The notes under the pieces: generated by a model | Told to the model about the DNA's origin: nothing | The model's input: only the letters and a program-made list of their open reading frames with translations | Database searches by the model: none | In this document: piece by piece, positions 32,136 through 35,060 of the stretch | Position numbering within the stretch: the stretch's first letter is position 1 | How the letters are laid out: every line of letters starts with the position of its first letter | Made by a program: the position numbers and the translations under genes | Assembly: GCA_017626145.1 (NCBI GenBank) | Contig: JAGAJK010000034.1 | Coordinates: 1 to 64,000, forward strand | Source of the DNA: Clostridia bacterium | GTDB taxonomy: Bacteria; Bacillota; Clostridia; RGIG6154 | Direction of reading: 5' to 3' | Length of the DNA: 64,000 nucleotides

Positions 32136-32179
32136 TTGACTAATTACAGTATTTAAGTTATACTTAAAACAAAGGAGAC
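32136..32179 (+). promoter_or_regulatory. Stranded promoter and Shine-Dalgarno of the SLH gene at 33834
   Basis: TTGACT (32136-32141), 17 bases, TATACT (32159-32164), then AAAGGAG (32171-32177) and GAGAC, where the IS110 element begins. Removing the element joins this to GTTTTATGAAAAAAC at 33829, restoring AAAGGAGACGTTTTATG with ideal 7-base spacing. Confidence 0.85.
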
Positions 32180-32308
32180 TAACTATTAAAAGTCAATAGT
32201 TTTTTAGAAAAAAGTACAAAGAAATTTTTAAAATAAAAGATTGCATGACAAATAGACCCTTTAAAATTAATTTTTTAAAAAGTCTAAAGTATAAGTTTTA
32301 GAAGTTAG

Positions 32309-33478
32309 TTATAGAAGCTTGTCTGCTTTGAATGGCTGATTAGTGGTTTCAAGTGTATAAATCAACCTGATTAACTTCTTGGCAACATGAGATAAAGCAA
32401 CCCTGTGTGGTTTACCCTCAGCACGCTTTTTGGCGTAGAATTCAGCAAACGTCATATTGAACTGAATTAAAGGTAAACAACAATTGATAATAGCACATCT
32501 TAAATGTGATGAACCACGCTTAACCATATGACCTGTATGCTCAGATTGACCTGATTGAAAGTAGCCAGGTTCTAAACCTGCAAAAGAAAGCATCTGTGCC
32601 GGTGATTTGAATTTGGATATATCTCCATATTCAGAAAGGATAACTGCGGCAGATAAAATTCCAACTCCGGGAATAGTTAAACAAGGTCTGTTAAGTTCAA
32701 GAGTAAGAGTTTTAATTTCAGCTTCAATATTGGTGATTTCTTCATCAATTTGACGATAGAGCCTTAAAACGCAAGATAGCTCCATTTCAAAAATCCGATT
32801 GGAAACACCAACAGAATTTTTTGCAAGTTCTTTTAAAGCAAGAAATTTCTGCATAGAAAACTTACCTCTTGAAATCTTGCGAAGTTCATCATATGAAGTG
32901 GTTCTGAATGCTGCAATTTTTTCAGGCGAACCATACTTTTCAAGAATATGTAAAGCTGTGGAGCTAAAGTTGTTGTTAAAAAACGGTTTAAACTCAGGAA
33001 AAATGTGGTCTAAAATGTCAGTAATTCTGATTAAATAAAAAGTTCTTTGCTTAATTAAAGAAAATCTTAATCTAGTTAGTGACTTTAGAGAATAATTGTG
33101 GTAAAATGACGATGGATAGGGTTTGTACTCTACTGTCATTAACCAACGAGCAATAGTCTGCGAATCTATTGCATCGGTTTTAGTCTTTCTAAGCGATAGA
33201 GCTTTTCCGTACTGACTAATCAGAGCTGGTTGAAACTCCACAAAGGTGTAGGAGTGTTTCTCTAAGAACAGCTTAAGGTTTAAAGTGTAATGACTTGTAG
33301 ATTCAAATCCTATTCTTTTTTCTTCAGAAGAATTAAGAGAATTCAATCTGTCAAGAAACATTTCAAAACCTTGTTTGTTGTTCTCAAAGGAAAATACACC
33401 AAAAGGAGCTTCACCGTCTGAAGATACGATAAAGCAATCATACTTGTATTTGGAAACATCAATTCCAACAAAATACAT
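32309..33478 (-). CDS. IS110-family transposase
   Basis: 389 residues. RuvC-like DEDD domain: Asp7 in YFVGIDVSK, Glu59 in IGFES, Asp102 and Asp105 in KTDAIDSQ. A coiled segment follows (about 235-265). The Tnp_20 domain has TIPGVGILSAAVIL, SFAGLEPGYFQSGQSEHTG (candidate catalytic serines 309 and 312) and KRGSSHLR. The start at MYFVGID has AGGAGG ten bases upstream; a longer open frame would overlap the guide loops and is rejected. All key residues are present, so the enzyme looks active. Confidence 0.93.
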   Translation of the reverse strand: MYFVGIDVSKYKYDCFIVSSDGEAPFGVFSFENNKQGFEMFLDRLNSLNSSEEKRIGFESTSHYTLNLKLFLEKHSYTFVEFQPALISQYGKALSLRKTKTDAIDSQTIARWLMTVEYKPYPSSFYHNYSLKSLTRLRFSLIKQRTFYLIRITDILDHIFPEFKPFFNNNFSSTALHILEKYGSPEKIAAFRTTSYDELRKISRGKFSMQKFLALKELAKNSVGVSNRIFEMELSCVLRLYRQIDEEITNIEAEIKTLTLELNRPCLTIPGVGILSAAVILSEYGDISKFKSPAQMLSFAGLEPGYFQSGQSEHTGHMVKRGSSHLRCAIINCCLPLIQFNMTFAEFYAKKRAEGKPHRVALSHVAKKLIRLIYTLETTNQPFKADKLL

Positions 33479-33489
33479 TAGGTTAAAAC

Positions 33490-33700
33490 CTCCTAAAAAA
33501 ATAATTAGCACTGCTTGTTTGCCACAAGAATTTCGACAATGTAATCTCGCAAATAAAAACGTCAAAGCGTTAACTAACTGATTAACAATTAAGGCGAAAT
33601 ACTGTGGTTTGAGTCTCCTTTGAACAGTCGAAGCTGTAAATTTTATGAACAAATCCACAGTGCCTATATATTATATCAAAGGTAGCTATCCTTTGGTATA
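33490..33700 (-). ncRNA. Predicted bridge RNA of the IS110 element
   Basis: On the complement, 5' to 3': a small hairpin (33700-33675); a target loop (33661-33601) closed by ACTGTGG/CCACAGT and TTTG/CAAA; a donor loop (33600-33530) closed by ATTTCG/CGAAAT; and a short CTTGT/ACAAG hairpin before a T run. The target loop carries TTCATAAAA (33649-33641) and CAAAGGAGACT (33622-33612) on either side of an inner hairpin. These match the two sides of the present insertion site. The donor loop carries AGTTAGT (33579-33573) and TGCGAGAT (33551-33544), which match the element's right and left ends. The exact 5' end is uncertain. Confidence 0.8.
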
Positions 33701-33833
33701 AACAAAACAAAAAAACAACTACGATCTATCACTAAACAGATAATTGCAGTTGTTAAAATAAAAATTTAAAGAAAGGAAAAGTATAATACAATTATCTTTA
33801 GTTTGAGGATAATTATATTATACGAGACGTTTT

Positions 33834-35060
33834 ATGAAAAAACTTATATCAATAGTGCTTGTTATCTGTGTGCTTACGGCAAATATAACAGCAATGGCAG
33901 AAACGAAGGAAGTTGAAGGCTTGCACGAAAAATTAAATGCCATAATTCTTGAAAATAATTTTTCCGAAGAACAAATAGCGGATATGGATGCTCAATTTGT
34001 AGAAGAGTTTAACCGAACATGGCCCGGTATGTTAGAAGGGTATAAAGCCCTTGGAAAAATGGAAACCGATAGCGATGAAGAGGAATATGAATATCGATTA
34101 AATTACGAACGTCCAGATTTTTCATGCGGAGTCAAGGTGACGTTATTAAGTGTTAAACGAAATTATGTAAAACAGTATGCCGATGTAAATTCTTTTAAGT
34201 ATTTGTTCAGCAAAAATGAATTTTGGTTAGTTCCTGTTTTGGAAGAATATGATTTATCCGGTAAATTAATAGCACCTACAAACGAAACCTTTTATAACAC
34301 ATATTCAGGTACTATCATTTACAGTGAAAATGTAGAAGTTATAAAAAATGAAGAATATATTAAAGAATTATTATTAGAAAAAAATGAAACAAAGGTTGAA
34401 GATATAAAAATTTTCTCTTTTCAACTGACAATTCCGTTTTTATATATAGACTGCGGCGAAAACGAGTATTTAATGCGTTTTTATGAAGATCAAATATGGA
34501 GAGATTTCTTGAAACCTTTTGAACCGTATAAGTTATATCCGCTTAAAGATGTTGTAAATGAACTGTCAAAAGGCAGCAAATTTATTCGACAAGAAAAACC
34601 AACCTTTGAAAATGAGGCTTTTAGTTTGCAGGAAAGAGGGCTTTTGCAGGGAAATGAGAATGGGCTTGATTTGTTAAAGCCTTTGACACGAATTGAGGCA
34701 GCAACGATGCTCCTTCGTGCAATGGGTGAAAGTACCGAAAGTGAAGCATCGGTGCAGACGTTTTCTGATGTTCCGCAAAGTCATTGGGGCTACGGTGCAG
34801 CAGAGAATGCCTATTCACTGGGCTTGATACAGGGTGTCGGAAACGAAATGTTTGCACCCGATGAGCCTGTTACATCAACACAATTTGCAACAATGATACT
34901 TCGTGCAGGAAGCTATGAAGAATTTAACTGGGAGGAAGCCCTCGACATCTTAATAAACGAAGGGATTTTGTCCGAAGAAGATACCACGGCAATGGATTTA
35001 TTCACCCGTGGCGACATGGCAAAAATCATTTACGAATCTATGGAAAAAGGCTTATTTTAA
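33834..35060 (+). CDS. SLH-domain secreted protein, expression disrupted by IS110
   Basis: 408 residues. Signal peptide MKKLISIVLVICVLTANITAMA. The middle (about 25-255) is an unrecognised acidic domain. Residues about 260-400 carry SLH-like units (LLQGNENGLDLLKPLTRIEAATMLLRAMG; FSDVPQSHWGYGAAENAYSLGLIQGVGNEMFAPDEPVT). The reading frame is intact, but the IS110 element has separated the ATG from its own ribosome binding site and promoter. Only a weak GAG remains about 8 bases upstream, so the gene is probably silenced or reduced. Confidence 0.75.
   Translation: MKKLISIVLVICVLTANITAMAETKEVEGLHEKLNAIILENNFSEEQIADMDAQFVEEFNRTWPGMLEGYKALGKMETDSDEEEYEYRLNYERPDFSCGVKVTLLSVKRNYVKQYADVNSFKYLFSKNEFWLVPVLEEYDLSGKLIAPTNETFYNTYSGTIIYSENVEVIKNEEYIKELLLEKNETKVEDIKIFSFQLTIPFLYIDCGENEYLMRFYEDQIWRDFLKPFEPYKLYPLKDVVNELSKGSKFIRQEKPTFENEAFSLQERGLLQGNENGLDLLKPLTRIEAATMLLRAMGESTESEASVQTFSDVPQSHWGYGAAENAYSLGLIQGVGNEMFAPDEPVTSTQFATMILRAGSYEEFNWEEALDILINEGILSEEDTTAMDLFTRGDMAKIIYESMEKGLF

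Follow-up and report, generated by a model that had tools for sequence, protein, structure and literature searches.

The bridge RNA system of IS621, a member of the IS110 group of insertion sequences, has been described by Durrant et al. 2024 (PMC11208160) and Hiraizumi et al. 2024 (PMC11208158). After strand exchange the handshake guide of its RNA pairs with the donor and not with the target, and its junction promoter takes the -35 box from the right end and the -10 box from the left end (PMC11208158). The seekRNAs of IS1111/IS110 elements (ISEc11, ISEc21) are comparable (Siddiquee et al. 2024, PMC11187229) in being short, element-encoded, reprogrammable and target-selecting, with related elements that have different guides using different targets; ISEc11 differs in being of the IS1111 type, with its RNA downstream of the gene. 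The window considered here is a stretch of 64,000 nucleotides from a Clostridia bacterium (contig JAGAJK010000034.1, positions 1 to 64,000). On its minus strand lies what is very probably an intact IS110-group element with a bridge RNA gene, the first loop of which would be programmed, across a whole clade of such elements, for translation-initiation sites. The mechanism is the one already known from IS621 and ISCro4; the programmed targeting of translation-initiation sites is the part for which we have found no precedent in the open literature searched.

Assignment to the IS110 group, and the bridge RNA mechanism proposed below, rest on sequence features that were tested. The full-length IS110 protein, read from 33478 to 32309 (Table 1), is a DEDD transposase with a Transposase_20 domain (Pfam DEDD_Tnp_IS110, 1.7e-31; Transposase_20, 3e-21). 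Its PDB matches are IS621 (8wt6) and ISCro4 (9t56, 3.5e-18), the latter being the closest solved recombinase by sequence, at low identity and with a likeness that concerns the protein only. A long non-coding left end, 346 nt before the transposase ATG, is paired with a short right end, ~131 nt after the stop codon, as is characteristic of the group. The element is single-copy in its genome, where two further IS110 genes are distant from it. One genome-wide scan yielded 73 relatives, two of them with 85% protein identity, and the element ends were read from ~70 relatives, with many copies at differing sites among them; the ends are directly readable because several species carry the same element at many sites. 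Across relatives the left end begins CGTATAAT and the right end closes TTGACT...TAGTTAGT or TAGTTTGT, and the dinucleotide between flank and element end is CA in most of them and CT in the window element.

The likeness to IS621 extends to the recombinase family, the placement of the RNA in the long left end, its two guide loops, the CT core and the handshake bases. It also includes the junction promoter: joining the ends gives TTGACT-17-TATAAT (TTGACT at 32191-32196), a promoter rebuilt at the circle junction so far as sequence can tell, again with the -35 box from the right end and the -10 box from the left. Unlike that of IS621, the left guide in the window clade ends in the inner hairpin before the core, so that the core lies outside its pairing and is read by the right guides only; this is a variation within the mechanism and not a family-defining feature. 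Further differences are a longer right guide, the CA core of most relatives, an outer GCACTG/CAGTGC stem able to close both loops and a -10-like box directly 5' of the RNA. The targets also differ: IS621 is directed to repetitive extragenic palindromes, the window element to a Shine-Dalgarno sequence and start codon.

Table 1. Features of the element and its insertion site in the window
Feature	Positions	Strand	Basis or remark
Intact IS110-group insertion sequence	32178-33824	minus	left end 33824, right end 32178, core dinucleotide excluded; ends from ~70 relatives
IS110 transposase/recombinase, 389 aa, apparently intact	32309-33478	minus	Pfam and PDB matches
Predicted bridge RNA gene, 157 nt, closed by GCACTG/CAGTGC	33508-33664	minus	41-relative alignment with compensatory pairs; covariance model R1
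Left target guide TTCATAAAATTT, 12 nt	33638-33649	minus	matches 33827-33838; register test p = 5e-4
Inner hairpin ACAGCTTCGACTGT separating both target guides	33624-33637	minus	alignment A1
Right target guide CAAAGG + core guide AG, sense Shine-Dalgarno	33615-33622	minus	complementary to CTCCTTTG 32170-32177; covariation p = 2e-4
Handshake guide ACT	33612-33614	minus	expected pairing with donor AGT after strand exchange; role documented in PMC11208158
Left donor guide AGTTAGT	33573-33579	minus	same as right end 32178-32184
Right donor guide TGCGAGAT, including handshake base	33544-33551	minus	pairs with GTCTCGTA 33821-33828
Core dinucleotide CT, left copy	33825-33826	minus	comparison with relatives and string location
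Core dinucleotide CT, right copy	32176-32177	minus	comparison with relatives and string location
Left target TTCATAAAACGT	33827-33838	minus	complement contains start codon of gene at 33834
Right target CCTTTG	32170-32175	minus	complement CAAAGG is part of interrupted gene's Shine-Dalgarno
Outward GAAAGGA then hairpin, just before host start codon	33771-33824	plus	possible replacement ribosome-binding site
Probable native promoter of interrupted gene, TTGACT-17-TATACT	32136-32164	plus	consensus match only
Host gene of 408 aa with S-layer-homology domain, severed from its leader; intact reading frame	33834-35060	plus	

The predicted RNA has a target-binding and a donor-binding loop. Its structure relies on an alignment of 41 related RNAs, in which 7 of the 20 consensus pairs show compensatory double changes, the single-sequence fold being not decisive (the first loop is seen, with a stability that is not unusual, z = -1.4). 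At gathering scores, Rfam matched only a tRNA in the whole window, and covariance model R1, built for this RNA, finds homologues in 35 of 391 genomes of the class. Homology suggests that the RNA is expressed and active. Compared with the 85%-identical relative L033, the left end has ~55 nt more (33701-33755), among them ACAACT...AGTTGTTTTTTT, a terminator-like hairpin that faces the bridge RNA. Two other relatives have insertions of ~15-18 nt in the donor-loop half of their RNAs, a short tandem duplication in L061 and an extra hairpin in L068.

A preliminary description of this locus had proposed a bridge RNA of an IS110 element, with guides that match the element's insertion site and its ends, and this is borne out. 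All of the strings that it quoted lie on the minus strand, one of them, the right-end copy of AGTTAGT, displaced by a single base from where it had been placed. TTCATAAAA is present in the RNA (33641-33649) and again at the left flank (33830-33838), CAAAGGAGACT is present in the RNA (33612-33622) with its complement AGTCTCCTTTG spanning the right junction at 32170-32180, and TGCGAGAT pairs with GTCTCGTA through two G-U pairs among others. Comparison with the relatives refines two of the assignments. Only CAAAGG and the core guide AG of CAAAGGAGACT serve as right target guide; the last ACT is the handshake guide, which would pair with the donor, and it is for this reason that the string crosses the right junction into the element. 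The left guide, described as a perfect 9-mer standing apart, does match its flank but does not stand apart: it runs 12 nt to the core, and opposite the left target TTCATAAAACGT it shows a single wobble and a single mismatch. In the register taken from ~70 relatives, the target TTCATAAAACGT-CT-CCTTTG lies opposite the left guide TTCATAAAATTT and the right guide CAAAGG-AG, and the donor TTAGT-CT-CGTATAAT opposite AGTTAGT and GCGAG. Since core and register came from relatives, and one other start-codon site of the set suits this left guide just as well (10 of 12), the contention that specificity could be predicted without any search was too strong.

Across relatives the guides covary with flanks, ends and core (p <= 5e-4). 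Among 37 distinct left guides, own pairs of guide and left target beat shuffled ones at just two registers, 0 (z 5.2) and +1 (z 4.6; p = 5e-4), the five others being null. Right guides likewise match the right targets of their own elements (p = 2e-4, three rows being misaligned by the script). The core guide within the right target guide agrees with the ends in all 50 relatives scored, with three further rows agreeing once shifted by one base, and the core guide within the right donor guide agrees with the core in 45 of 45. The handshake base of the right target guide agrees with the final base of the left donor in all 50 relatives scored, changed ones included (T in 47 and A in 3 of these, C in three further rows). 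The donor guides follow the ends in the same way: the left donor guide shifts between AGTTAGT, AGTTTGT and AGCTAGT in step with the right end, the right donor guide is GCGAG in the window element versus ACGTG elsewhere, in step with the core, and the CA-to-CT core change of the window element is present in both the right target guide and the right donor guide. The expectation that changes of the target guides would track insertion sites is borne out by L033, the nearest sequenced relative: it differs from the window element mainly in the target guides (14 of 22 positions identical; elsewhere in the RNA, 125 of 135; p = 7.5e-4) and lies at a site changed to match. Unchanged guides beside different flanks, which the preliminary description would have counted as a refutation, do occur in multi-copy genomes, but these flanks share the part that the guides specify.

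What that description overlooked is that the target is a Shine-Dalgarno sequence with a start codon. On the opposite strand it reads CAAAGGAGACGTTTTATG, belonging to the gene at 33834, and removal of the element leaves the plus strand TTGACTAATTACAGTATTTAAGTTATACTTAAAACAAAGGAGACGTTTTATGAAAAAACTT, with promoter-like boxes, Shine-Dalgarno sequence and start codon of the 408-aa gene in succession. Similar sites recur throughout the clade. By a loose test, a host reading frame starts <=20 nt from the junction in 43 of 51 clade sites, at a distance of 7.3 +- 2.2 nt, the corresponding figures being 17% for random positions and 20% for GAGGTG words elsewhere in those flanks; by a strict test (ATG only, 4-12 nt from the junction, open reading frame of >=80 codons) the count is 37 of 51, as against 3.2% of random positions (p = 3e-44). 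The mean anti-Shine-Dalgarno energy is -6.4 versus -1.4 kcal/mol. The right guides are Shine-Dalgarno-like in nearly every variant, the weakest being TAGAAAG in L087, and vary with the Shine-Dalgarno variant of the site (GAGGTG, GGAGATG, AGGAGTG, AGGAGG, AGAAAG). For one other target gene, uninterrupted orthologues have a Shine-Dalgarno sequence immediately ahead of their ATG. Statistically, the preference for translation-initiation sites is strong, and it stands, with the anatomy of the element and the covariation of guides with flanks and ends, as something directly observed. No report of IS110 elements aimed at Shine-Dalgarno sequences was found in the open literature, a search outside which most subscription journals and preprints fall; nor was targeting of ribosome-binding sites mentioned in the available part of Siddiquee et al. 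2024 (PMC11187229).

A recombinase loaded with the RNA would pair the first loop with the host site and the second with the joined ends of the excised circle, TTAGT-CT-CGTATAAT, and cutting beside the CT core with strand exchange would proceed as shown for IS621. Since the right guide carries the Shine-Dalgarno sequence and the left guide the complement of spacer and start codon, the insertion would fall between the ribosome-binding site and the ATG of a gene, with the element directed away from that gene. We infer that the RNA is transcribed and used by the recombinase, and that its pairing causes the site preference.

Two other explanations would dispense with programming. The matching strings might have arisen by chance in AT-rich DNA, the RNA having no guide role. 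The left match taken alone is weak, a 9-mer match to the left flank arising in 3.4% of 20,000 block shuffles of the RNA, and the unexceptional single-sequence fold points the same way; the right match is not weak, a 10-mer match at the right junction never appearing in those shuffles, and with conserved RNA structure and covariation of the guides at family level this makes chance scarcely credible. Alternatively, insertions into coding sequence may be lethal or lost, so that survivors are found upstream of genes and guide matches are a consequence of the preference, not its source. Selection against gene disruption is general, and the left guide is matched loosely only; selection alone would not, however, fix the junction distance inside the Shine-Dalgarno-to-ATG interval or make right guides change with the Shine-Dalgarno variant of the site, and we regard this explanation as very unlikely.

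Several observations nevertheless weigh against the bridge RNA explanation with its programmed first loop. In many relatives the left guide matches weakly (mean 4.9 of 10, versus 4.1 when shuffled), guide and site disagree in some (L042, L083), and L154-L156 hit another repeated sequence and not a Shine-Dalgarno sequence. No true empty copy of the window site was found among relatives and paralogues, and the host gene's partial, 98%-identical copy elsewhere in the genome is preceded by another leader.

Some of these cases have features of their own. The partial host-gene copy (L186, G000:C93, 898-1208) is a fusion of the first 60 and last 47 codons; its identity to the host gene begins exactly at TATG, and the differing leader is TGGAGGTAATTATTGCTATG. 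The right flank of L042, CACTCCTTTG, misfits its own right guide GGAGGTG, yet reads as a Shine-Dalgarno sequence on the other strand. A possible empty site in G318 proved to be an eighth copy (L194) of the element resident in that genome. L194 has its flank in common with L142, and L138 and L139, of the same genome, share a left flank and have nearly identical right flanks; both pairs are segmental duplications carrying the element.

The same class of site, Shine-Dalgarno sequence with start codon, is used in the multi-copy genomes G318, G336 and G183. In G318, G183 and several single elements, the guide arrangement of the distant elements having been classed by hand from their sequences, it is the left guide that holds the complement of the Shine-Dalgarno sequence, which places the junction upstream of that sequence and leaves it with the host gene. 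On a transposase tree, such Shine-Dalgarno-sparing elements group in a single clade, inside which the L154 type is nested. The left guide of L154, L155 and L156 (G152), TTACACCCACCT, matches the repeated sequence CACACCCACCTC and not a start-codon site, a natural guide change inside a clade otherwise aimed at ribosome-binding sites.

Members of the window clade separate the host gene from its Shine-Dalgarno sequence, and the left end may make up for this. Read outwards, 42 of 42 distinct left ends of the clade have a GAAAGGA-type word and, after it, a hairpin whose end lies ~10 nt short of the host ATG. The hairpin is stable (mean z -3.8), its arms change together, and it is contained within one element end; outside it, GAAAGGA lies mostly 10-19 nt from the ATG (13 in the window element), three low values being script misassignments of motif or fold. 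The word also occurs in 9 of 9 distant elements whose right guide carries the Shine-Dalgarno sequence, a class in which L159 and L163 are placed by their right guide, with no start-codon site shown, and in 4 of 15 elements with its complement in the left guide, none of them with strong AAGGAG. A tentative reading is that these transposons home on translation-initiation sites with a built-in repair, the left-end GAAAGGA(G) replacing the lost Shine-Dalgarno sequence and the hairpin shortening the spacing to ~13 nt. We lean instead towards the GAAAGGA-hairpin being a transcription terminator or an end signal at the DNA level. Read inwards, the hairpin leads into a T-rich tract, TTTTCCTTTCT, and there is overlap with the -10 box of the promoter formed at the circle junction; moreover, four elements that retain the host Shine-Dalgarno sequence carry a weaker form of the motif. 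Two points speak against this: the invariant part is the GAAAGGA purine block and not a plain T-run, and strong AAGGAG is confined to elements that separate a gene from its Shine-Dalgarno sequence (25 of 51, versus 0 of 15, in few independent lineages). The number of independent switches is small. The left-end GAAAGGA is not taken as proof of a replacement ribosome-binding site, given that the Shine-Dalgarno-sparing elements all belong to a single clade and that the weaker motif is present in four of them.

Bridge RNAs are under development as genome-writing tools, and natural guide targets are known for few elements. The relatives examined here supply natural guide pairs whose sites are already known, among them a CA-to-CT core change and two opposite placements of the Shine-Dalgarno sequence in the guides. 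A clade aimed at ribosome-binding sites would be a natural answer to the problem of landing safely, since such a target is shared by a great many genes, is kept constant by the ribosome and avoids coding sequence. This raises the question of how host genes survive such insertions. If the left end does supply a replacement ribosome-binding site, the host gene could stay translated while the element occupies an abundant and conserved class of targets.
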